Shown here: positions 5,169 to 36,405 of the stretch, piece after piece
How positions within the stretch are numbered: the stretch's first letter is position 1
Layout: each line of letters starts with the position of its first letter
Virus record (IMG/VR): IMGVR_UViG_3300042938_000893
Span: 1 to 38,483 of that record
Origin: a virus
DNA length: 38,483 nucleotides
Reading direction: 5' to 3' (one strand)
Program-made: the position numbers and the translations under genes
The notes under the pieces: model-generated
Databases searched by the model: none
Seen by the model: the letters and a program-made list of their open reading frames with translations, nothing else
Told to the model about the DNA's origin: nothing

Positions 5169-6068
5169 TTACGGGGACTCATCGCAATAGATACGAACAA
5201 CCTTCTCATTCTCAGTGCGGACGGCACCAAGCATCATGGTCGAGCGAATCTGAAGCGCATGCCGGCGGGTAGGCAGAATGTCCATCTGCACCTTGCGGTC
5301 GGACATGGCGAACTTGATTGCGCTCTTGTGGAAGGCAAACACGGAGCGGATGTCAGCAACCGAGGAAACGGTGGCATTGATGAGACGCTGCGAGGACAGG
5401 AACTTGAAACCGAGGAAGGTGTCGACCTGACCACTCACAAGTGCCTTGATGCTGTTGAAGTCTTCGCTGGTGACTTCCGTAGTGCGAAGAAGGTCTTGCA
5501 CCTGTTGAGCACCACAGACGAGCATACGGTCAGAGTTTGGCACTTCAGCCAAATCCATCAGGTATTTGGCTCGACGAAGTTTGCCAATGGTCAGACCGCT
5601 CTGCGCGGCGGATCCGGTTTCAACATAGCTGGACGCGATGGAATAGCTGGAGTTGAAAGCATCCGAGGTCGTGCCGTCTTCGCCAATGTAGCGGGTAGCG
5701 TCAAAGGCATTGATGATCACGTCATCGATTGCACGGTTGAATGCCATCGCGTGAGACTGGACTTCGTCGCTCGTTGGGAGAACGATGGAACCGAGGAAGT
5801 GCTTGTCGAACTCATCGAAGACAGTGACTTTTTCCTTCGGACGCTGGGTGAGCCAGTATTTGGATCCGTCGAATTCACCGTCAGGCGTGTCACCTTTGCG
5901 AGTGAGAACGTCCTGAGCTTCGGAATCGTTGATGAGGTTGAACCATTTCTTCTTGCCGGTGAAATCGGCGCGAGTAACGGAATTGAGCAGGCGCGAATCC
6001 ATCTGCTGGAGAGCCTGGGAGAAAGAGCGTTCGAACTCTGTTGGGTAGAATGTATCAATGGTAGCCAT
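5169..6068 (-). CDS. Major capsid protein
   Basis: A 299-residue protein starting MATIDTFYPTEFERSFSQAL. Motifs such as KKWFNLINDSEAQDVLTRKG, LPTSDEVQSHAMAF and AQQVQDLLRTTEVTSEDFN match the phage capsid-like family found in many podoviruses next to a portal of the head-tail connector type, with the HK97 fold expected. It follows portal and scaffold in order, is flanked by a long gene-free leader and a strong terminator, and sits behind two copies of the TTCTCA palindrome, all pointing to a strongly and separately expressed gene. No N-terminal delta domain is apparent, consistent with a separate scaffold protein. The leader lacks a Shine-Dalgarno. Confidence 0.87.
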   Translation of the reverse strand: MATIDTFYPTEFERSFSQALQQMDSRLLNSVTRADFTGKKKWFNLINDSEAQDVLTRKGDTPDGEFDGSKYWLTQRPKEKVTVFDEFDKHFLGSIVLPTSDEVQSHAMAFNRAIDDVIINAFDATRYIGEDGTTSDAFNSSYSIASSYVETGSAAQSGLTIGKLRRAKYLMDLAEVPNSDRMLVCGAQQVQDLLRTTEVTSEDFNSIKALVSGQVDTFLGFKFLSSQRLINATVSSVADIRSVFAFHKSAIKFAMSDRKVQMDILPTRRHALQIRSTMMLGAVRTENEKVVRIYCDESP

Positions 6069-6095
6069 GATTTTGGTGTGATGAGGTGAGATGAC

Positions 6096-6132
6096 CTGTC
6101 CGTTGTGGACAGTGTCGGAAGTCGTTGCTTCC
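6096..6132. other. Two hairpins in the capsid gene leader
   Basis: CTGTCC/GGACAG (6096-6101 with 6107-6112, 5-base loop) and GGAAG/CTTCC (6117-6121 with 6128-6132, 6-base loop) lie in tandem, 28 to 64 bases before the capsid ATG. They may stabilise the capsid mRNA 5' end or belong to the larger structured block. Confidence 0.45.
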
Positions 6133-6210
6133 AGTGCTCCTCGGTTGCCTTCGTTGAAGACCTCGTAGACCGGCTTTCAGCTTGTCCATTGCTGGGGCTG
6201 ATTCAGGATA

Positions 6211-6257
6211 TTCTCACAAATGAGAATCAAAGCAAGAACTTTTCTCATTTTTGAGAA
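6211..6257 (-). promoter_or_regulatory. Two palindromic sites TTCTCA-N4-TGAGAA ahead of the capsid gene
   Basis: Perfect inverted repeats TTCTCA-CAAA-TGAGAA (6211-6226) and TTCTCA-TTTT-TGAGAA (6242-6257) start 31 bases apart, about three helical turns. On the minus strand a TTGCTT lies between them, 16 bases before GAATAT, so the sites overlap a possible promoter for the capsid gene. The same palindrome occurs ahead of the portal group and ahead of the tail appendage group. It is best read as an operator or late-promoter element, though hairpins in the RNA cannot be excluded. Confidence 0.6.
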
Positions 6258-6365
6258 AAAGGATCATTGCACATGAGCGGCACATAAGAATCAGGAGTTG
6301 TAGTGAAACACTGATTTAACTTGCAAGAAGCGACAAATGCTTCACCTTCAGGTCGAATTCAAATA

Positions 6366-6410
6366 GGTTTCCCTCTCTGAGAAAGAGTGATCCGACCCAT
6401 TGGGGAAACC
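6366..6410. other. Hairpin domain GGTTTCCC/GGGAAACC
   Basis: An 8-bp perfect stem (6366-6373 with 6403-6410) encloses a smaller CTCT/AGAG hairpin (6375-6378 with 6384-6387) and a CCCA stretch that can compete for pairing with the closing strand. It sits just before the plus-strand terminator and, with two hairpins at 6289-6316 and 6327-6343, makes a compact structured unit. Confidence 0.5.
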
Positions 6411-6416
6411 CGCCGA

Positions 6417-6447
6417 GGCCGACTTTTTCTCAGGAAGTCGGCCTTTT
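6417..6447 (+). terminator. Plus-strand rho-independent terminator with no plus-strand gene
   Basis: Plus strand GGCCGACTT (6417-6425) pairs with AAGTCGGCC (6435-6443) around a nine-base loop and is followed by TTTTGCG. On the minus strand the hairpin has no T tract after it, so it is oriented to end a plus-strand transcript, although no plus-strand protein gene exists here. It may end a small RNA starting near the TTCTCA sites. Confidence 0.6.
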
Positions 6448-6819
6448 GCGTTCTGGGCATCTCCTGCCTGACATAGTTGGTAGCGTCCCTGAGTGGGCAA
6501 CGTGGGCCAATGTTGGAGATTCGGCGCACGGTAGAAAGCAGATCAGCCGTGCAAAAGTCTTATCCGAAAGGATAGGCTGCCGCTTGAATCGTTTGACCCG
6601 TGTTTACTGAGACAGCCGAGCGGGAAGATTTAAGTGTGCGATGGTGTTCCTAATTCCCGACGAATGAGCAACTCACGCTAGCAGATTCCCAGCAATGGGA
6701 CTGCTATGCTCCGATGAAACCATCAAACCCTCTGAATGAGTATGCAACGAAAAGGGCCAGGCCGATTAAGACCTGACCCCTGCTCATTCTGAGGACACTA
6801 GAGCTAGTGCAAAAACGCC
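6440..6819 (+). ncRNA. Candidate large structured RNA between scaffold and capsid genes
   Basis: This stretch has no credible gene but is filled with nested arms. Arm A 6459-6520: ATCTCC/GGAGAT, ACA..TTGG/CCAATGT, CGTCCC/GGG..ACG. Arm B 6526-6552: GCACGG/CCGTGC. Arm C 6559-6576: TATCC-GAAA-GGATA. Arm D 6583-6634: CTTGAATC/GATTTAAG, CCCG/CGGG, TGTTT/AGACA. Arm E 6640-6724: GATGGT/ACCATC, GAGCA/TGCTC, TAGCAG/CTGCTA, TCCCA-GCAA-TGGGA. Arm F 6729-6794. Arm G 6796-6809. A long-range GGC.TTTTGC/GCAAAA..GCC pairing could close the domain. GNRA loops and G-U pairs (6532-6546, 6560-6575, 6586-6631, 6604-6611) favour a plus-strand RNA; one pair in arm F (6757-6776) favours the minus strand. Folding was by eye and no family was identified. 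Confidence 0.42.
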
Positions 6820-6832
6820 GACACAACTCGGC
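6811..6832 (-). terminator. Rho-independent terminator after the scaffold gene
   Basis: Minus strand GCCGA (6832-6828) pairs with TCGGC (6821-6817) around a six-base loop and is followed by GTTTTT (6816-6811). It lies 11 bases after the scaffold stop, so most minus-strand transcription should end here and the capsid gene needs its own promoter. Confidence 0.72.
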
Positions 6833-6842
6833 ACCTCAAATC

Positions 6843-7667
6843 TTATGCGGTCGCAGCACCGTGCAAACGCTGAAGCTGAGACAATGCAGCGGTTTGCTTC
6901 TCGATGCCATTCTTTCCTTGGTAATCGTCACTTTTGCGAATGCGATCAGCCTGCTCTTGGTAGGTAGCCGCGACATTGTCACCGCTGACCAGGCCGGAAT
7001 CTTCGCGCAGGAACTTATCCACAGCCAGTGAGGCGCGAATGAATTCAGGATCCGATGCCAGTTTGCTGGTCTTGATGTCGATGCCGACTGCCAGTGCTCC
7101 ACGAGCTGCACGCTGCCAGTTATTTGGAGCATCTGCGCCCCATTCAGTATTCAGCCCATCGATCACGCTCTGAATCTGTTGTGCCTGCAACTCAGCCGAC
7201 TTGGTGACGATGCCACTCAAGTTATCATTGTTGAGGTCAATGAGTTTGTGCAGTGCTTCAGGTGGAATGCCATACTCTGCTGCAATTGCTGCGGCTTTGT
7301 TGGCAGTGTCAGCATTCCACTCAATGCCTTCAGGCAGGTTCTCTGGTGCCTTCAGACCGTAGTCTTCAGCTTTCTCAGGCGCACCGGTGATTTTCCTGAC
7401 TTCAGCGCGATAAGCGGCGATCTGTTCAGGTGTTGCGTTGGCACCTGGGATCTTGATCTCGCGTTTCTCGCTGAATGCCTTTTCGAGCGACTGATATGAT
7501 GCGCCGAGTTGATCAACCTTTGGCTCACCTTTGGCCTCATCCCAGAACTTGGCTGGAATGTAGTCAGGTCGAGTGACTGTTGATGGCGCAATGTCGGGAG
7601 TCGCCGGCGTTGGTGTGATCTGCGTTTCGAGCGCAGTCGTTTCTGTGGTCGTTGTTGTTGTGTCCAT
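6843..7667 (-). CDS. Head scaffolding protein
   Basis: A 274-residue acidic, helical protein starting at the ATG at 7667, four bases after the upstream stop (TAA CATC ATG). The N-terminus is a Thr/Pro-rich disordered tail; residues 32-60 read RPDYIPAKFWDEAKGEPKV followed by a SYQSLEKAF helix, the recognised opening of podovirus scaffolding proteins. The remainder is Ala/Glu/Lys-rich helix with a motif GIPPEALHKLIDLNN. Gene order portal, scaffold, capsid supports the call. Scaffold proteins guide procapsid assembly and leave or are degraded before packaging; no protease motif is visible in it. Confidence 0.85.
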   Translation of the reverse strand: MDTTTTTTETTALETQITPTPATPDIAPSTVTRPDYIPAKFWDEAKGEPKVDQLGASYQSLEKAFSEKREIKIPGANATPEQIAAYRAEVRKITGAPEKAEDYGLKAPENLPEGIEWNADTANKAAAIAAEYGIPPEALHKLIDLNNDNLSGIVTKSAELQAQQIQSVIDGLNTEWGADAPNNWQRAARGALAVGIDIKTSKLASDPEFIRASLAVDKFLREDSGLVSGDNVAATYQEQADRIRKSDDYQGKNGIEKQTAALSQLQRLHGAATA

Positions 7668-7671
7668 GATG

Positions 7672-8025
7672 TTATTTGACGTTGATTTCTTTCCACTGGT
7701 TGAATTCACTTGGCCCGTAAGTGTTGACGAACCGAAGCTGAAACTGCTGCTGATTCTCGTAGTAGTTACCGAATCCGCTAGTGTCCCAGCGTGATGGAGC
7801 AGGCTCTTGAACTGACAACGATTCGTTGTCGGTTGGTTCCTCGGTTGGTTCCTCAGGCCATGGCTTAGTAATGACCACTTTCAGGTTAGGGTTTGCCGCA
7901 ATGTCTCGGATTTGTCCCAAGATGCGCCCGCTGATCTTCTCACCGGCGATGATTGTGTCATTGACGATGCGACCGATGAACTCGTCATCGCGCATCACTT
8001 TGTTGTCTTCTGTGATTGTGATCAT
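7672..8025 (-). CDS. Unknown small protein between portal and scaffold
   Basis: A 117-residue protein starting at the ATG at 8025 (leader TAACAAC-ATG, whose TAA is the stop of the gene before). The N-terminal half (EDNKVMRDDEFIGRIVNDTI) looks like a small beta unit with the 'k-v-r-d-g-k-f-v-G-x-i' pattern seen in small phage proteins. The middle is an acidic Pro/Glu linker (EEPTEEPTDNES) and the C-terminal part is rich in aromatic residues and glutamine. I do not recognise a function; its place within the head group suggests a structural or assembly role. Confidence 0.7.
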   Translation of the reverse strand: MITITEDNKVMRDDEFIGRIVNDTIIAGEKISGRILGQIRDIAANPNLKVVITKPWPEEPTEEPTDNESLSVQEPAPSRWDTSGFGNYYENQQQFQLRFVNTYGPSEFNQWKEINVK

Positions 8026-26487: not shown

Positions 26488-29400
26488 TCAGTCTTCTTTG
26501 CCGTAGAATAGGGTCGAAGTGTCTTTGAAGACTCGGTCGGCAATACCTGGTGCGGATCCAGCCGGCGAGAACGGAGTGACCATCGCGCCCCCAGCTTTCA
26601 TGATTTGCCATGCACCACCGAGGTAATCTTCATTTTCCATATTCTCTGGCAATTTCTTAATCGATTGAAGGAATTGATCAGACATGTCCACCATTGGGTT
26701 TATCGAAGATCTCCAGTTTCGCGGTGCATCCTGCTTTTCTCCGGTGAGTTTCTCGGTCGCCGCAGCAACTGCTGATGCGATAAAGAACTCAGCAGCAGCA
26801 CCAAGCAGGAACAATCCCTGCAACGGGCCAACGATGGCAGCACGAATGAAGTTGTCGAGTTCCCACTCTTTGTCGTCGTCCTTGAATAACGACCGAGTGA
26901 CAGCATTAGCGACTTGGAACATCAGCCCAGGTATCACCCAATATGCCAAAACCTTCCTCATTGCTTCCTCGTTGGTCGCTCCTCCGCGCTTCCATTTCAT
27001 CACTGCCTCACCAACGAGTCCGAGTTTCTGTCGAGGATCCGACGAGAACATAGACAGCAGGTTGAAGACTCCGCTGACATCATTCTCGATCAGTGATCGG
27101 CCAGACCAGTCATTCGGTTGAGCGGTTCGGCTCACAGCGATCTCCATTTCACGAGCCGCATATTTGTGAGCAGCATCGTCGCCGGCACCGGCATCCTTAG
27201 CTTGAGCGAACCGGTCGCCATAGACCATTGCCGCCGAATATGAGGTCAGCACAGCATCAGCATACTGGGTCGGCACAGACCCATACACCAATGCGTTCTC
27301 AACAAGCCTAAGAATTGAATTCTTTGATTTGCCAGCATTTGCCAAGATGTGCCTGATCTCAGGAGTTCCACCAAGCTCAAGCCGGTTTTGGATGATGTTC
27401 GTGTCCCACATCTTGCCCCAATGCTCAACACCTCGCGTGAATGCCGCCGGCCATCTCGTGATTGGTATTTCACCCAATGAATAGAACACACTCGAAAGCG
27501 TCTTGATCGATGTGCCGATATTGAATGCGAGTGCTTTCATCGCCACACCTGACTTCAGGTTCCTCATCAGTTTTGACGAGTGCATGACGAGTGCGCCTTT
27601 GCCAACTCCTCGTGACATTTCAAGCTGGATCCACGATGACAGTGTCTGCATTGCCTCTGCGCCATGACCCGATTTGATCGCATTCTGCACATCTGCATTC
27701 AGCATCACGGCTTGAGTATCGCGAAGGTATTCAGCCATATGCACCCAGTAATCCATTTGCACGAAGTGCGCTTGATAGACTGCCAATGCGCTTTCAATTC
27801 TCAGCGACGATGTGCGTCCTCGACGTGATTTGACTGCGCCAGGGTTTACCGATTGCGAGACAACACCAGAGTTCAGCGGATCAAGGCTGGCTTGATTGCC
27901 CTGATGGTTCTTCAAAAGCGGAGCGTAAAACTGTATCTGCGGCATGCGCGTGTGAAACAGTTTCATGAAGACCTCGTTAGCAGTGTCATATTCCGCCGAG
28001 TATTCCGCGCCAAACCATGCCAGCCAGTTTTTGGCATCGTCGCTCATGAATGCCTCAAGCTCAGTCTGGGTAACGTGATCGTAGCCATGCACTGACTGCT
28101 GGTCGAGGATGCCTGGCTGGCGCAATGCCATTGCCATGTATACAGCTTCCATCTGTGACAAAGGAATCTCGATGCGAGTGCCTAGTGTCTTGATCCTGTC
28201 GATGGTCAGGTTGCGCTTGCGTGCATTTGGCAGATTCGACCATGCATCCATTTCATCTTCCCACAGTTTTGCCTCTTCCGCAGAGTAACCGAATGTGGAT
28301 GGAGACTTGATGATCTTCGCCACCTCCTCAACTGTTTTGGTGTCGCTTTCTCTGATCTCTCCGCTCAGGTATGTGACTCGACTGCGCTCGACTTTGGTTT
28401 CGAGTTTCTCCAGTTCTTTGTCCAGCTTGATCTTCGACTTGGTGCCGTAGAGAGCACGCATGAAATCACGCAGGCTTTTCTTTCGTGCGGCTTGTGTTGT
28501 TTCAAACGCATTCACACCGAGGATCATGCGCTCATCAAATACATCCGCAGTCTTATTTGACCTGCCAAAGATTGAAGACAGCATAAATCGATGTGAGCCG
28601 CCTTCACGAAGGAGTCCCTTCATTATGCCCTTGGTGGTGCCTTTGCCTTTATCTTTACCTGCCTGCACTGTCGCTGCATTGGCCGCGCCGGCAAACGCAT
28701 CAGCCTTGGCCTGCTCGACCATTTTGGCAATCTCCGCAGCACGAGCCTCGTCGATGATCTTGCGAGCATTGCGACCCTGTGTCATGAGATCTTTGAGATA
28801 CTCGTGTGCCACGTCCATCTCTTCAGCAGTCGTCTGCTTGCCGTAGAGGTCACCGAATACTTCCAGCAGTTGACTCTTGGCGAACGAATCAGCGGCATCT
28901 TCAGCAGTCTGTGCCGATATGATCTCAGCCTCATAGCGTGCCGCCTCTTTGACCGTGTCATCAGCCGAAAGGCTTGCCATGTCGATGATCGTGTTCAGTT
29001 CGTCCTGCACGGTGACGATGAACTTGGATTTCGGAATCTCGCCGGCCTTGCCTTTTACAGCAGCAGATTCCAGCATCTTGTCGATGCGTTCGCCATACTC
29101 CTTCTTCAGGTATCGCTCGACCGCTTTTTCCATTTTCGGAATGCGCTCCTCGATAAACTTGAGACGTGCCTCGTCGGAAGACAGTTTCACCAATGTTGAT
29201 ATGCTGCCAATAGTGCCGCGAATCTCGGTGGGCATCGATGACACAATTGCATCGTGAAGCTGGATCCACCCATTGAGTTTATCCTTCAGCATCGCCGCCT
29301 TCGCCTGCTCTGGAGTCGTCTCTTTTTCGAGCGACTTCTTGACCCAGTCAGGAGTCTTGTCGGTGACCTTGCCGAGCTTTGCAATTCGGCTTGCCTCCAT

Positions 29401-32400
29401 CTCCGCGAGTTTGCGCTTTGCAGCACCTGGGCGACCAACATTGTAGAGTGCCTCACCTGAGATCGCTTGAGCACGCTTCAACGCCATCATGCCAATCTTG
29501 AGCTTGGCATCAGGTGATCCCTCAAATAGCGGACGCAGTGACTGTTCTATTCGTCCGGTGAAGTCTGATCGGGAGATTGAGAAAGTTGGGCTAGTCGAAG
29601 AATATCTTCCCCGTCCTGTGCCAACAGAAGCGAGTCCATCACCTCCGCGAGTAATGTTTCCAATTCGTTTGGTGAGTTGGTTTCCAGTGAGTCCATTTTT
29701 GAGTTCTTTCCTTGTTAGCGGTTTTGATTCCAGTTTCTTTAAATAGGCACCGTAGCTTTCGGGCGTTTCACCTGACTTCACAATCGAATAAGCCCAGAGC
29801 GCGGCTTGAACCTGCGATGGACTCCATCCGATTTCATTGGCTATCTTTGTGAGTATCTTCTCAGCCTTATCATATTGAGACTTGCTTGGAGTGTCCACAC
29901 CGAAAAGCAATCTTGCGATGTGCCGGTCAACGACCACTCTCGACAAATCACCTTCATTGGCAGCAGTGTAGTTTGCAATCTTGCGACCATTGGCAACAAG
30001 GTTATTTTTGACCGCATTGAGATTTGAAATCACCGCTGGCAGATAACCGCTCTTCTCTTCACCTCGCAGCTTCCCGTCAAATTCTTCGCCGCGCATCAGT
30101 TGCCCGAATGCTTTCAATGCCAGTCCGACATTTGCCTTCACACTTGAGGCTTGAGACGTGACCGACAAGATCTTCTGGAACAACTCAGCCGAGTCGCCAA
30201 AGAATTCATCAAGAGTCTCTTTGTGCTCAGAATACCAGTCCTTCCACGAGGCTTGAGCAAGAGCAGCATCAGTGAGTGCTTTTTTAGTGAGCAGGACACG
30301 CAGGGAGTTCTTGCGATTAGCCTTCTCCATTGAGAAGGTTGTGCCTTCAAACTCTGGAGTCTCACCATTTGCCCACTGTGTCAGCAGTCCATTCACCTTG
30401 CCCCACTTGCTTCCGTTCAACTGCATGGATGAGCGATTATTTGCATCATCTTCAAGGTCAACGTACGCACCATCAGCAGATGTCACGATTGATTTTAAAA
30501 CAGATGCTTGGGCCGAGGTAATCTTTGCGCGGCTGTGCATGGAAATCATACCGCTGTTTGCGTCGATCCTGACTGCGCCGAGACGTAGAAACCCAACCAT
30601 TCGCTCCCAATTCTCTTTGTAATCAGGCATGTCTTGCCACTCAATTTCTCGATGATCCATGCCGCGCTGATCCTTCATCCAGTCGCGAACACCTGCCTTG
30701 ATTCGGAATACGCCATCTTCGCCACGTTGGTAGTCTCCAACCTGTGACTTGCCAGAAAAGTCCAGCATCGTCCCATCTGGCAGGACGTATCCTGCCTCAT
30801 AGATTGAGCGAGTTACTCCGTGGTTCTTTTTGACTTCGGCAAAGATGTCAGCAGCAGGTTTCCCATTGATGGATGGCGCGACCTTGTTTTCTGGCGTGAT
30901 GCGCTCTTCTTCTAAGACAGGTGAGATGGAGAAGGTTTGGCCTTCCTGTAGACGGTTAGCCTCAATTTTTGCAAGTATCGCATCACGCTCTTTGGCGGTA
31001 AGACCTAAAGCCGCTAACCGTGCTGCATTAGCGGCTGCAAGCTCGGCAACAATGGAATCACCGCCTCTGGGAATTGATCCTCGATATCCTCCAACATTCC
31101 CTGAAGCACCGGCACCGTCAGTTCCGCCTGACTCGTATTGAGCATTGCCGCCAGCAGGTTTTCCTGATTTTGCCCTAGCATTGCTAATCTCTCCTCTGGC
31201 CATGCTTCCCGCATCCTCTCCTTCAAGTCTTTCGGGAGAGGCGGAAATTTGATTTGTGTTGAGTCCTTCATACTTCATTACTAACTCCGTTGGCTTTGGA
31301 TGTCTAGCTTTATCCCAACCCATTGAAGTCCAATCCGCCTCTTGGTTCTCGTTAGCCGCAGAAGAAATTTCTGACTCAGATTCAATTTTCCAACCGTGAT
31401 TAGCAAACAGGGAAGCAAGAACTCCAGAAGGCTTTTTATCAGTAATGACGTTGGTTATTTTGGTAATGTTTGCGCCTTCTGATAATGCCTTATGCATCAT
31501 CACATTCATTGCGCCTTTCAATGCAAGTTCGTTTGAGATTGCGTTGAACATTTCCATTGTTCCGTCTGCGTTCTTTTTGATCGCAAAGAAAATGGCAAAC
31601 TTGGGCAATCTGTAAATTTTTAAAGTTTTACTTTTGAGCGCCGCATTAATTTCAGACTCTGTCATTGACACCAAATTGGATGTCGCCACAGAATTATTTA
31701 CTGCACGTATATAGTCTGCAATGTTTTTTGCCTTAGCCTTTTGAGCTACTTCCCATTGATCATTTAAAGCAGAAATCATCATCAATGCACGATTTCGAGG
31801 AATGCTAAGTTTCTGCACATCGTTAATCGCATTGAAGACTTTTGGAGTCAATTTCTGCAACTTCACACTCTCTGGAAGCTTTGCTTGCATGAGATAGGTT
31901 GGACTGCTTTTTGGTGAAGCCTCCTTCATCTCCCTGACCATATCAGGGAAAGCTACATTCATTGGCACTGGTTGACGCAGGTGCGTTACGATTTCACCTG
32001 GGAGAACTGTGTCATATGATAAGTGCTCAGGCACTCCAAAGTCTGATGCATTCAACGTGTTGTCACGCAGGCCAGTGCGTAGCCGAGTAACATCAACCTT
32101 GATCACATTAAGCATACTGCCTCCAGTGATCATGTCATATGAATCATCGCGACCCTGTCTGATCGCAGTTTCAACATCAGGCAAACCAAGAGCAACTCCA
32201 TCTTGCTTCTTCAGCCGATTCATAACGTCTGCGCGTTCTGGATAAATCAGCGTCTTGACATAGTCTTCCATCTCCTGAGCAGTCCATTGCTCTGGGAAAT
32301 TCATCAGACGATTCTCGGTTGGTTCTTCTGGCTTTTTTGGTTCTTCGTATTTATCAAGAGGTCTGAGTGGTTTATACTTTTTCCCAGCTTGATCTGCTTT

Positions 32401-35400
32401 TTCTTTTCTGACTGCCTCAAGTGCGCTGCGATCTTCTGCTTTTTCTAAATACTTGGCTTTTGATTTTTCCTTCTTTTCTTCCCAACTAGGCAAGGTTTCT
32501 TCATTGTATTTTTTAATAGCTTCATTGAGAGCATTCTGACCTGTTGCTCTCATCATTTTAGCAAGAGCAAGCTTCTGCGCGTCTGTTGGGTTTGAGTTCT
32601 CAACCGCATGCATGAATGACATGAACATATTGTTGTTACTCTGGTGAGCATCTTGACTCATCGCGAATACAGCAACCAATGCCCACTCATGACCATCAGT
32701 GTCTTTCCACACTCCACCACGCTTGTCTAGGTATCCAAGAATGCCGGCAATGGCACCACGCGCAGATCGCCATGCTACGTCAGTACCGTAGTGCAGAAGC
32801 GGATGAATCGGCCCACCTTCCCATGGCACACCAACTCCAGTGCCGCCAGCCATAAGATCTGCCATGATTGGCAGGATTACTCGGTTTAGATATTCGCGAC
32901 CTATTGTGGATGAGATGCCCAACCTGTCAGCAAGGTCGTTTGCTGCCTCTTTTGTATAAGTGCCAAGAGAGAACGAAGTCTGCCCTTCGTCAAAAGGCTG
33001 TGCGCTACCCATGCTGAAATTGATGTCTGGCGATGCTTGGTTAAACCGTTGGCTGAGAGGGATGACTTGGCCGGACTCGTCGTAGGTTATTGGGCCGGCG
33101 GATTTTGAAGTTCTCGCCAGAACCATGTCTTTGCCTTTTTTAACAAAGCCGAGTGACTCGTAGTAACTTTCTTGACTACCTCCTAGCGGCGTAAGTCTGA
33201 GGTCAAACAAATCCGAGATTCCTATCAAAACATCCGCAACAGTCCGTTTTGGCGCTGTTTTATTCTCAATCCATGAAATGTAAAGTTCCCCATTTTTCAC
33301 CTCGTCCGTTACAATTTCAAAACCATAAGGATCTCCCTCAGTTGTTAATGAATCCCCCTCACGCAATACCGCAGCAAAATCATTTACAATCTTTCCAATG
33401 CGAGGGCCATGCTTCGCTAAAATAGCCGCCTCGTCCACCATGCGCTGGGCCTTCGCCAAGTCGCCCGCCTTAGCAGCAGCGAGATACTCAGCGTCTTGCT
33501 CTGGCGAGACACGTCCCATCGACATCGTCACGCCGGCATCCGCAGCAATGCCAGCAGCAGTGTCAACAACGGCATCTGCGTTGCGGTTGGATACATTCAG
33601 ACCAACGCTCTTTTCAAGCGCAGCGACGAAGTCCTGGTTGAGTCCGTTCGCATCGTGGATCGCTTTCAATTGAGCAGCGCGATAGAGAATGTTGAGCGTC
33701 TTCTCACCGACGAGATCTATGGCATCCTTCAATTCCATGCCAGCAATGCTTGACTGGAGACTGCCAAGGTAAAGATTGAGCGGCATGTCCGAAGTGAAGG
33801 TCGGACGCTCAACGGCCTTGGCTGTCTGCACGTAATACGACTTCGCAATGTGCGAGAATGCTTCAATGATTTCCATATTGGAAACCTGATTGTCGTCGCC
33901 GGTAGCGATGAGAGGCATGTGCCTCTGCCCCATCTGCATCGCCCTCTCTTTCATCTTCGCTTCGACATCTCTGATTTGCAGAATCAGTTTTGTGCGGCTC
34001 GTCGGATCACTCATTAAACGCTTCACTCCGACTTCTGCGCTTTCCTCGATGAGGTCGAGAAGACTGCCTCCTTTGTAAAGCGTGATGACTCCAACAGAGA
34101 TTCCTTCGCGTTGCTCTATTGAGTTAGTGCCGAGGATCCGGTAGTTCTTATTGTCGTTTGCTTCAGACTCGAGGGTTGCATTGTCGAGCGATACATCTTC
34201 AACTGCTCCATCAATTTGGCCTGTCAGCTTGATGCGCTCTTCGACTTGTGCGGTAGTCGATGGGAACAACTCGGTGAACTGTTTGGTGAACATGTCGTAG
34301 TCCATCATCAAGGCAACATCAAGACCCTGCTTTTCCTCCAAGGTATTAACCATTGATGTAAGGAATTCCTGCTCTGCTTTTCTGATGGTGATTCGACTGT
34401 TTTTCAGATATCGCATCCATGCTTCATTCGCTTCACTGAGTGAATCAAATTGTGCGCTGACTCCCTGATCAATGATATTGCCTTTGCCATCCTTCAGAAT
34501 AGGAGTCGTAAACTGGTACTTGCCATTGCCAATGTTTGCTGGAGTTCCAAGGCCAAAGTCCTGTCTGGCTTTGTTATGCCATTCAAGTGCCGCTGATTCT
34601 CTGATGTTGATTTTTCTTTTAGCTTCCTTGATCTGCTCTGGCGTTGCTTTGTTGCCTTTGTCGAAACCTTTGCGGAACAATTTATCGACTTCAGTGTAGT
34701 TGCCCTTCAAACCTTCAACTGTGATCTGGTTGGCTAAGTCAGGAGCAATGCCTGATTTTACCATATAGTCAGGCGATGTTATCAATGCGCGTGAATTCTT
34801 CACGTCTGCAATGGAGATTCTGCCTGCCATGAGGAATGACACGATCAGTGCCGGCCCAAATGTCTGCTCTGCAATGTCCGAGATCTTCGGCATGCGCTCA
34901 TCCCAGTCAGCTTTCGAGATTCCGCTTTCGATTGACCATGCAGATTGCCACTCAGAAAGCAGATCTTGGGTGAGCAAAGGTGTCGCAGTCTGCATGACCT
35001 CTTCAGAGATCTCGGTCGCCGTTCCGATTACAGTGCGCGTTGCAACGCGAATTGCTGCGCTCTTGACGCTTGTTGTTGCAGCTTTGAGCCATTTGTCGAT
35101 GAACGGGATCTTGATCTTTCCCAGCGGCAAAGCATTTGAGATGAATTCCTGCGTTGCCATAAACGGTGCCGAAATAGCACCAACAACCTCTGCGTTCTCA
35201 AATGACACTCCTGCGTTTACTGCCTCAATAGTTGCCTCATCCCTGAACTGACCTGTCATGATAGCAATCGACGCAGGGCTACTAATGAATGTCGCTGCCA
35301 GCAACGGAGTCATGCGTGCGACTCCAATGCCGGTTTCTTCCCACCAATTATTGCCGGCGATAGGATTGATTTTGCTGTGTGCCATCATCTTTACTTGGCC

Positions 35401-36405
35401 GGCTAAGACTTGGAGTTCTCGACGATTTTTGGCAACATCTACAATTCCCTGCATCTCAGGGATGTTTTGATACAATGAAATTGCTTGTGATGTCAGCATC
35501 GACTCAGCCAATGACGCAGTGCCAGTGACTCCTTTTTCTATTTCGCGCTCCATTGATATCGCGATTTTTTCCAAGTAAGCTTTCTTTTCTTTTGGATCCG
35601 CTGAACCCGCTTCACCAATGGCATTGATTACCAGCAACCGCTCTTTTGGCGGCAGCGAAAGCAAACTCTCAGCTATCTTGCTGAATGCATCATTAGCGTT
35701 CTCTTGGACTTCAAACTCTTTACCAAAGACAAGACTGTCGGTAAGTTTGTTAAATGTGTTTGAAGGCGTTTGATCAAGGCTTTGAATAGTCTTCGCCGCT
35801 TGATCAATGATTGTTCGGTATGGCGCAAGTCTCTGCGTGTATTCAAGGTGTAGATCACCAATCGACTGGTGATAGTCTTTCATACGTCCAGCTACTGGTG
35901 AGCCGGTTAATCCAACATTGAATTCATTGATTGCACTGTCTGCGGTGAAATCTCGTGCCGCTGCGCTAAAGGCCAGGTTGTGAGCATTGTCTTGTGCTTT
36001 GTAGTCTTCGCTCACGAGTTGGTAGAACTCGTCATCAGTGACGGTCTTCTTTGGCGACTTAAAGAACTGCTGCGCGTAAGTGTCCTGATAGACGGGCAAT
36101 GTCAGATTGAAATGATCAATGGGCTTTTGTTCACGCCTCGCAAGCCAGGCAACATTTGCTGCGCCTTTTTTGATGGTCGCGATTTCTTCAGGTGAAGTGC
36201 CATAACCGGCCATGACGTTGTCATCAATCTTAACGCCTTCAATTGATGGTGATGTGAATGCCTTTTTGATGCTTTTATCTACCTTCAGATCTTCAGCTTG
36301 GAAGTATTCATCAAGAGCGGTTGCCATCTTGAACTTCTCACCATCAGGAACCGATGGATCTTCAATGCCTAATGCAAATTCCTTGGCTTTTGTTTCGTCG
36401 ATCAT
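26488..36405 (-). CDS. Giant polyvalent internal virion protein (gp16-position)
   Basis: A 3305-residue protein from the ATG at 36405, about 26 percent of the genome, in the position of T7 gp16 (1318 residues). Visible parts: a small-residue hydrophobic segment at about 350-385 (GVARMTPLLAATFISSPASI) followed by 'TEISEEVMQ'; GNAT-like segments near 1070-1090 (YYESLGFVKKG) and 1590-1700; charged Lys/Glu/Pro linkers near 1300; several LPD-like regions; and a C-terminal third typical of large polyvalent proteins, ending in a hydrophobic LPD38-like region at about 3090-3290 (VFNLLSMFSSDPRQK). Linkers carry a repeated F-S-[MIL] motif. It is probably packed in the head, ejected first and used in the envelope or cytoplasm. 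No lytic transglycosylase motif is seen at the N-terminus. Confidence 0.75.
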   Translation of the reverse strand: MIDETKAKEFALGIEDPSVPDGEKFKMATALDEYFQAEDLKVDKSIKKAFTSPSIEGVKIDDNVMAGYGTSPEEIATIKKGAANVAWLARREQKPIDHFNLTLPVYQDTYAQQFFKSPKKTVTDDEFYQLVSEDYKAQDNAHNLAFSAAARDFTADSAINEFNVGLTGSPVAGRMKDYHQSIGDLHLEYTQRLAPYRTIIDQAAKTIQSLDQTPSNTFNKLTDSLVFGKEFEVQENANDAFSKIAESLLSLPPKERLLVINAIGEAGSADPKEKKAYLEKIAISMEREIEKGVTGTASLAESMLTSQAISLYQNIPEMQGIVDVAKNRRELQVLAGQVKMMAHSKINPIAGNNWWEETGIGVARMTPLLAATFISSPASIAIMTGQFRDEATIEAVNAGVSFENAEVVGAISAPFMATQEFISNALPLGKIKIPFIDKWLKAATTSVKSAAIRVATRTVIGTATEISEEVMQTATPLLTQDLLSEWQSAWSIESGISKADWDERMPKISDIAEQTFGPALIVSFLMAGRISIADVKNSRALITSPDYMVKSGIAPDLANQITVEGLKGNYTEVDKLFRKGFDKGNKATPEQIKEAKRKINIRESAALEWHNKARQDFGLGTPANIGNGKYQFTTPILKDGKGNIIDQGVSAQFDSLSEANEAWMRYLKNSRITIRKAEQEFLTSMVNTLEEKQGLDVALMMDYDMFTKQFTELFPSTTAQVEERIKLTGQIDGAVEDVSLDNATLESEANDNKNYRILGTNSIEQREGISVGVITLYKGGSLLDLIEESAEVGVKRLMSDPTSRTKLILQIRDVEAKMKERAMQMGQRHMPLIATGDDNQVSNMEIIEAFSHIAKSYYVQTAKAVERPTFTSDMPLNLYLGSLQSSIAGMELKDAIDLVGEKTLNILYRAAQLKAIHDANGLNQDFVAALEKSVGLNVSNRNADAVVDTAAGIAADAGVTMSMGRVSPEQDAEYLAAAKAGDLAKAQRMVDEAAILAKHGPRIGKIVNDFAAVLREGDSLTTEGDPYGFEIVTDEVKNGELYISWIENKTAPKRTVADVLIGISDLFDLRLTPLGGSQESYYESLGFVKKGKDMVLARTSKSAGPITYDESGQVIPLSQRFNQASPDINFSMGSAQPFDEGQTSFSLGTYTKEAANDLADRLGISSTIGREYLNRVILPIMADLMAGGTGVGVPWEGGPIHPLLHYGTDVAWRSARGAIAGILGYLDKRGGVWKDTDGHEWALVAVFAMSQDAHQSNNNMFMSFMHAVENSNPTDAQKLALAKMMRATGQNALNEAIKKYNEETLPSWEEKKEKSKAKYLEKAEDRSALEAVRKEKADQAGKKYKPLRPLDKYEEPKKPEEPTENRLMNFPEQWTAQEMEDYVKTLIYPERADVMNRLKKQDGVALGLPDVETAIRQGRDDSYDMITGGSMLNVIKVDVTRLRTGLRDNTLNASDFGVPEHLSYDTVLPGEIVTHLRQPVPMNVAFPDMVREMKEASPKSSPTYLMQAKLPESVKLQKLTPKVFNAINDVQKLSIPRNRALMMISALNDQWEVAQKAKAKNIADYIRAVNNSVATSNLVSMTESEINAALKSKTLKIYRLPKFAIFFAIKKNADGTMEMFNAISNELALKGAMNVMMHKALSEGANITKITNVITDKKPSGVLASLFANHGWKIESESEISSAANENQEADWTSMGWDKARHPKPTELVMKYEGLNTNQISASPERLEGEDAGSMARGEISNARAKSGKPAGGNAQYESGGTDGAGASGNVGGYRGSIPRGGDSIVAELAAANAARLAALGLTAKERDAILAKIEANRLQEGQTFSISPVLEEERITPENKVAPSINGKPAADIFAEVKKNHGVTRSIYEAGYVLPDGTMLDFSGKSQVGDYQRGEDGVFRIKAGVRDWMKDQRGMDHREIEWQDMPDYKENWERMVGFLRLGAVRIDANSGMISMHSRAKITSAQASVLKSIVTSADGAYVDLEDDANNRSSMQLNGSKWGKVNGLLTQWANGETPEFEGTTFSMEKANRKNSLRVLLTKKALTDAALAQASWKDWYSEHKETLDEFFGDSAELFQKILSVTSQASSVKANVGLALKAFGQLMRGEEFDGKLRGEEKSGYLPAVISNLNAVKNNLVANGRKIANYTAANEGDLSRVVVDRHIARLLFGVDTPSKSQYDKAEKILTKIANEIGWSPSQVQAALWAYSIVKSGETPESYGAYLKKLESKPLTRKELKNGLTGNQLTKRIGNITRGGDGLASVGTGRGRYSSTSPTFSISRSDFTGRIEQSLRPLFEGSPDAKLKIGMMALKRAQAISGEALYNVGRPGAAKRKLAEMEASRIAKLGKVTDKTPDWVKKSLEKETTPEQAKAAMLKDKLNGWIQLHDAIVSSMPTEIRGTIGSISTLVKLSSDEARLKFIEERIPKMEKAVERYLKKEYGERIDKMLESAAVKGKAGEIPKSKFIVTVQDELNTIIDMASLSADDTVKEAARYEAEIISAQTAEDAADSFAKSQLLEVFGDLYGKQTTAEEMDVAHEYLKDLMTQGRNARKIIDEARAAEIAKMVEQAKADAFAGAANAATVQAGKDKGKGTTKGIMKGLLREGGSHRFMLSSIFGRSNKTADVFDERMILGVNAFETTQAARKKSLRDFMRALYGTKSKIKLDKELEKLETKVERSRVTYLSGEIRESDTKTVEEVAKIIKSPSTFGYSAEEAKLWEDEMDAWSNLPNARKRNLTIDRIKTLGTRIEIPLSQMEAVYMAMALRQPGILDQQSVHGYDHVTQTELEAFMSDDAKNWLAWFGAEYSAEYDTANEVFMKLFHTRMPQIQFYAPLLKNHQGNQASLDPLNSGVVSQSVNPGAVKSRRGRTSSLRIESALAVYQAHFVQMDYWVHMAEYLRDTQAVMLNADVQNAIKSGHGAEAMQTLSSWIQLEMSRGVGKGALVMHSSKLMRNLKSGVAMKALAFNIGTSIKTLSSVFYSLGEIPITRWPAAFTRGVEHWGKMWDTNIIQNRLELGGTPEIRHILANAGKSKNSILRLVENALVYGSVPTQYADAVLTSYSAAMVYGDRFAQAKDAGAGDDAAHKYAAREMEIAVSRTAQPNDWSGRSLIENDVSGVFNLLSMFSSDPRQKLGLVGEAVMKWKRGGATNEEAMRKVLAYWVIPGLMFQVANAVTRSLFKDDDKEWELDNFIRAAIVGPLQGLFLLGAAAEFFIASAVAAATEKLTGEKQDAPRNWRSSINPMVDMSDQFLQSIKKLPENMENEDYLGGAWQIMKAGGAMVTPFSPAGSAPGIADRVFKDTSTLFYGKED

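Follow-up and report, generated by a model that had tools for sequence, protein, structure and literature searches.

The 774-bp gap between the capsid gene and the scaffold-like gene of this phage genome holds one copy of a modular phage RNA family, in which a leader is followed by an interchangeable domain and then by an open reading frame (ORF) or by nothing. The part of the gap at 6362-6740 almost certainly encodes, on the plus strand, a structured RNA belonging to a plus-strand RNA family. As an overall explanation, a modular RNA family with a leader controlling transcription accounts best for the data, and we hold it with evenly balanced confidence. The window, meaning the whole stretch of DNA analysed here, is the 38,483-bp virus record IMGVR_UViG_3300042938_000893, a podovirus-like phage. 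Its genes, all on the minus strand, encode a head-tail adaptor, capsid, tail, terminase, DnaB-like helicase, RecT, single-strand-binding protein and endolysin; a 3,305-aa ORF (26488-36405, minus) makes up about a quarter of the genome. Judged by the capsid protein, the closest GenBank phages, at about 38% identity, are an uncultured podovirus and Pelagibacter phages such as HTVC010P; the label "lake" for the phages discussed here rests on the environmental source type of the sequences.

An earlier note, made from the sequence of the window, had described 6069-6842 as a gene-free block forming one candidate ornate phage RNA. Indeed, the gap contains no convincing gene, and on either strand its folding beats that of dinucleotide-shuffled controls (z = -8.05 on plus and -6.31 on minus; -6.2 and -5.5 with a second set of shuffles). 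An identical gap is present in L002-L005 and L008, from five other datasets, which rules out an assembly artefact. Among 46 relatives identified via the capsid protein, the scaffold-capsid distance is bimodal, at about 230-350 nt or 720-1,440 nt, so that a block is sometimes there, sometimes missing and sometimes exchanged for other content, and close relatives differ by the presence or absence of the insert. Relatives that lack it still have the terminator of the scaffold gene at one end and, at the other, the promoter, operators and leader of the capsid gene. A single RNA across the 774 bp is ruled out by these flanks, which are common to insert-less relatives and covary on the other strand. 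The gap is thus three things: a minus-strand control region of the capsid gene, the plus-strand RNA at 6362-6740 and a minus-strand scaffold terminator (Table 1). The reading as one ornate RNA therefore stands for 6362-6740, where covariation, the strand bias, the folding and the occurrence of the RNA in other phages support it, but not for ~200 bp at the left and ~100 bp at the right, which belong to the flanking minus-strand genes. When segments were folded separately, the leader core scored well whichever strand was taken (z = -4.4 for plus and -4.8 for minus); the type-A domain did so only on plus (-4.3 vs -1.4 on minus), and the right flank, 6741-6842, was best on minus (-5.0). Across relatives the scaffold-capsid gap is a hotspot of accessory genes with many alternative contents: an HTH_17-like ORF in L007, Xre-like ORFs in L036 and L040, and in L021 a 211-aa ORF with no Pfam match, near-identical gaps occurring in L025, L042 and L046.

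Table 1. Positions of the features of the gap and of the two genes bordering it, numbered from the first letter of the window.
Feature	Position	Strand	Evidence
Major capsid protein gene	5169..6068	-	PHROG 3437 "major head protein", E = 1.7e-55
Capsid mRNA 5' leader, a separate structured RNA	6069..6200	-	Covariation of two helices
Putative capsid promoter	6207..6235	-	TTGCTT (6235-6230), 17-nt spacer, AATATC (6212-6207); read from the sequence
Two operator-like palindromes, TTCTCA..TGAGAA	6210-6227, 6240-6259		Sequence pattern, kept in most relatives
89-nt RNA leader, two hairpins and loop-loop pairing	6362..6450	+	Model R1, 78.1 bits, E = 1.5e-17 (this copy was itself in the model)
Hairpin P2 (GGUUUCCC..GGGAAACC), conserved GUGAUCCG in loop	6366..6410	+	
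Loop-loop helix, 5' strand (CUGAGAAA)	6377..6384	+	Pairs with 6426-6433
Hairpin P1, terminator-like, then UUUG	6416..6444	+	Paired in all copies, covariation; boundaries are alignment columns
Loop-loop helix, 3' strand (UUUCUCAG), in P1 apex	6426..6433	+	Pairs with 6377-6384
P3 subdomain, closed by AUCUCC/GGAGAU	6459..6520	+	Contents vary between copies
Type-A RNA domain	6521..6740	+	Covariation; plus-strand z = -4.3; 3' end judged from conservation
Type-A H1	6526-6532/6546-6552	+	Covariation set H1-H4
Type-A H2	6561-6565/6570-6574	+	Covariation set H1-H4
Type-A H3	6583-6590/6627-6634	+	Covariation set H1-H4
Type-A H4	6597-6601/6620-6624	+	Covariation set H1-H4
Type-A terminal hairpin	6679-6706	+	
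Scaffold gene terminator (GGGTCAGGTC..GGCCTGGCCCTTTT)	6750..6779	-	Kept in insert-less relatives L009-L018
Scaffold/protease-like gene	6843..7709	-	PHROG 3742, E = 4.1e-19; PHROG 458 "protease", 6.8e-9

On the capsid side, the capsid mRNA begins with a 5' leader that constitutes another structured RNA, distinct from the object of the earlier note. Two of its minus-strand helices covary among 25 relatives (0.503 vs 0.218 shuffled, 0/500), further hairpins are retained among relatives despite altered sequences, and translational control of capsid synthesis by this leader is possible. The promoter proposed for the capsid gene has a TTGC-spacer layout that is common to the relatives, the window copy scoring below the cut-off of the consensus scan. 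The two palindromes overlap or adjoin this promoter; a helix-turn-helix ORF in the same gap of L036 and L040 could regulate them. On the scaffold side, the scaffold gene has its 3' region, terminator included, at 6741-6842, and relatives that have no insert retain this stretch. The long-range pairing once proposed to close the right half of the fold (6440-6449 with 6809-6819) was rejected, as its 3' half lies in the scaffold flank, outside the RNA, and it would join that flank to the plus-strand RNA.

The leader carries the best-supported feature of the whole gap, one that the earlier list of stems omits. Its first hairpin, P2, has a GGUUU..AAACC stem and a conserved loop motif, GUGAUC(C/U)G; its second, P1, has a 9-bp base followed by a short U-run and is 100% paired in 20 copies (covariation 0.432 vs 0.149). 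The apex of P1 is complementary to a strand within the P2 loop, forming 6-9 Watson-Crick pairs in 16/16 distinct loop pairs; loops exchanged between copies reach 6 pairs in only 6/230 cases, and shuffled loops in 2.9%. At least 10 different sequences of this helix occur across copies, always complementary, and the pairing is retained in five further copies that R1 or the search patterns brought up (p 0.0005-0.006 each), some of them with new sequences. Model R1 holds the pairs of P1 only, and neither it nor the search patterns included the loop-loop pairing. In some copies, and not in others, the loop-loop helix extends into the top of P1. P1 was called by a terminator scan in L136 and L076; the scan did not call it in the window, where the tail has too few T. 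A TTGAC lies at most 60 nt upstream of the leader in 8/15 distinct copies, about 0.055 being expected per copy, and promoter scores upstream of the leader combine to p = 6e-4; for the window copy itself the promoter scan gave no convincing leader promoter. Two further loci, L055 and L068, are the two ends of IMGVR_UViG_3300039106_000411 and carry different leader versions, as if strain variants had been joined in assembly.

Behind the leader, the type-A domain of the window is supported independently. Its helices H1-H4, amounting to 31 pairs in 19 sequences, have 94.9% of cells paired and 17 pairs changed on both sides, with a covariation of 0.417 vs 0.149 shuffled and 0.04-0.09 in slid controls. 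Among the stems noticed beforehand, those at 6559-6576 and 6583-6634 are in the sequence and are supported by compensatory changes, and the hairpin with a GCAA loop at 6687-6700 is likewise in the sequence. A closing pair, UCGG/CCGA, was dropped, not being kept in L071, L074 and L079. The evidence for P3 is weaker than that for P1 and type A: it ranges from about 65 to 330 nt, its closing helix has eight different sequences in eight copies, in windows chosen by eye, and an automatic test of P3 gave no signal above mismatched copies. The enlarged P3 of L087 and L090 contains a stretch resembling a tRNA T-arm (CTGGTTCAAGTCCAG); a tRNA there was rejected, since ARAGORN calls none.

The plus strand had been proposed from G-U pairs, and for 6362-6740 this holds. 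Wobble cells number 10 on plus vs 0 on minus in P1 and 39 vs 0 in the four type-A helices, that is, 49 and 0 together, the cells not being independent events. A wider count shows a few A-C cells, mostly from one subgroup with an extra base in the alignment. The U-run after P1 agrees with this one-sided bias, as does the orientation of the ORFs downstream of the RNA. That the gap has no RNA function, its fold being terminators, operators and recombination debris in an accessory-gene hotspot, as the many alternative contents of the gap and its terminator and operator palindromes might suggest, is highly improbable and largely refuted by covariation, which in each of two independent parts greatly exceeds that of shuffled and slid controls, with the loop-loop pairing kept over so many sequences and the G-U bias pointing the same way.

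Searching viral contigs for patterns taken from the insert, together with R1, extended the leader-RNA family to more than 40 phage contigs in several genomic contexts, all metagenomic and with related sequences that are not independent. R1 finds the leader in 27/35 phage records, usually exactly once. The domain behind it varies: told apart by eye, type B occurs in L011, L047, L083, L084 and L086, type C in L038 and L040, and other domains in L049, L052, L056 and L067. In L136-L139 the leader stands directly before an operon of small genes, with neither a large domain nor a nuclease. The site varies as well. In the window, L057, L089 and L070 the unit is antisense and just upstream of the capsid gene (the L070 capsid appears, by eye, to be of a different lineage), in L071, L076, L080 and L084 it precedes another block of minus-strand genes, and it is usually back-to-back with structural genes. 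L028, L042 and L023 have no RNA at the capsid site and carry the leader elsewhere, immediately before a small-gene operon pointing away from the tail genes; the L038 genome has it at both the capsid and the operon site. Several candidates were set aside: 12/14 new loci of one pattern search had no paired P1 (L157 and L158 were retained), L069 and L072 share a 19-mer from the insert in another context and were not counted as type A, and a bacterial-genome match, L094, lies inside a coding stretch without the surrounding RNA and is due to chance.

Comparison with known RNAs gave no assignment, in agreement with the earlier note, which could not place the RNA among GOLLD, ROOL, HEARO or the phi29 packaging RNA. 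No Rfam family reached its gathering score in the window or in 13 relatives, and the Infernal models of GOLLD, ROOL, HEARO and group I introns gave nothing at E <= 10 within 5900-7000. Weak matches obtained at loose thresholds (SCARNA18, CRISPR-DR21, RefA9 and others) are far below gathering scores, scattered and attributable to chance. With regard to a phi29-type packaging RNA, no Rfam family matches the window, whichever packaging-RNA models Rfam may include. Blastn against 50,697 phage records, cultured phages among them, and 72,556 plasmids returned no match, and a collection of bacterial and archaeal genomes gave one 18-base match, the chance match L094, in an exact-match search of the kind that misses diverged copies. 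No description of the RNA family was found in the literature covered by our search, most subscription journals lying outside it.

Kissing loops after a promoter-like sequence, a P1 that is scored as a terminator in some copies and a leader standing before operons together favour control of transcription past P1, resembling in position and length HK022 put (PMC9378689) or a terminator leader. The leader would thus be a cis-acting transcription-control element of a counter-oriented transcript. RNA polymerase would start just upstream of AAATAGG, and the loop-loop complex would allow termination at P1, yielding a short leader RNA; alternatively, the complex would be remodelled or bound and the polymerase would read through, the GUGAUC(C/U)G loop being a candidate contact. 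Control of read-through at P1 is a tentative proposal, somewhat short of an even chance; the attenuator-type switch is putative and its anti-terminator partner hypothetical. In the window phage no ORF follows the type-A RNA, which would therefore be the end product of read-through, and here type A fairly probably acts as a stand-alone RNA. Six ORF-less type-A copies (the window, L035, L039, L045, L088 and L089) retain the fold, so the RNA is more than the leader of a single gene. Against the preferred mechanism count the lack of a convincing promoter and the T-poor P1 tail in the window copy; moreover, the large domains have no role in a pure attenuator model, and the nuclease ORFs found beside several domain types are unexplained by a plain leader.

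These nuclease ORFs raise a serious alternative for the larger units, namely that they are mobile elements of an RNA and a homing nuclease, travelling together in the manner of group I introns or HEARO elements, the RNA assisting mobility, splicing or nuclease targeting and the window copy having lost its nuclease gene. HNH ORFs follow the RNA in L047/L078 (Pfam HNH, 1.9e-5) and L052 (AI2M-like HNH, 0.0047), the L056 ORF resembling that of L052 by eye, and PD-(D/E)XK-like ORFs, apparently all members of a single family, occur after type C in L038/L040 and after type A in L158, hinting that ORFs and domains are exchanged independently. Presence or absence of the insert between close relatives would also fit a mobile element. 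Other units are followed by other small ORFs or by none. Most type-A copies, however, have no nuclease and the ORF-less ones keep a covarying fold, a phage genome usually has one leader, and the leader by itself heads operons. That Rfam matches neither a group I or group II intron nor HEARO here also speaks against a mobile element, and as an account of the family we find it rather unlikely.

Less likely still, type A would be a large stand-alone RNA in the manner of GOLLD and ROOL, acting in trans or as an RNA assembly during infection, the leader serving it only as a folded 5' end and a signal for expression. Multimer-forming large RNAs are known from phages (PMC12286853), and type A is the most conserved part of the unit, densely covarying and ORF-less in six copies. 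Against this stand the lack of an Rfam match, the size of type A, which including P3 is about 280 nt, less than that of GOLLD or ROOL, and the replacement of the domain after the leader by unrelated ones or by none, which means that the unit can do without type A.

The large RNAs known from phages are few, and for most of them the function is an open question. The present family offers a defined secondary structure, strand and 5' region and a well-supported loop-loop pairing, and its natural domain swaps, together with copies that have or do not have the large domain, allow function to be tested by straightforward exchanges. Should the leader control termination, phages would have one more RNA element that steers RNA polymerase; should the link to nucleases be genuine, the family would represent RNA-linked homing of a kind distinct from introns and OMEGA. 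It is conceivable, at a confidence well below even, that the family is a new modular class of phage RNA, in which a kissing-loop transcription leader is combined with swapped large RNA domains and nuclease genes; these domains may belong to RNA-nuclease mobile elements, or may be RNAs that act on the host RNA polymerase or other host machinery.

The late leader of lambda (6S RNA) consists of a promoter, a short leader RNA and a terminator followed by regulated genes, an order that our family shares; unlike it, the leader described here has a loop-loop pseudoknot, and no antitermination protein was identified for it. Mobile group I introns are structured RNAs with an optional HNH or PD-(D/E)XK ORF, as are the units described here. 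Unlike them, the present RNA has no Rfam intron match and is intergenic, antisense to its neighbours and equipped with its own promoter-like sequence rather than placed inside a gene. HEARO, the RNA of the IsrB/IscB OMEGA systems, resembles the copies in which a structured RNA lies upstream of an endonuclease ORF; unlike HEARO, most copies have no nuclease, the proteins are small (112-268 aa), and Pfam finds only HNH or PD-(D/E)XK domains in the tested relatives, with no IscB/IsrB-type nuclease adjoining the RNA there and no ORF in the window. GOLLD RNA forms a multimeric cage made of RNA only. GOLLD has a conserved half and a variable half, with tRNAs sometimes in the linker (PMC12286853). 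Like GOLLD and ROOL, the RNA of the window is large, structured, phage-borne and without a protein product; unlike them, it has a constant 5' leader, a 3' domain that is swapped wholesale, a length of about 380 nt and small operons or nuclease ORFs after it. Leaders of the put type are factor-independent antiterminators that suppress termination through the zinc-binding domain of the RNA polymerase beta' subunit. The putRNA of HK022 is about 70 nt long, with two stem-loops just downstream of an early phage promoter, and acts in cis on transcription (PMC9378689). Compared with put as described there, our leader differs in its loop-loop pairing, the U-run after the second hairpin and the large domains attached to it. 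No operon follows the window copy, nor does a clear promoter precede it; in L136-L139, with promoter evidence at the level of the family, the 89-nt leader with its two hairpins follows a promoter-like sequence and heads operons of small genes, as in the layout of put.
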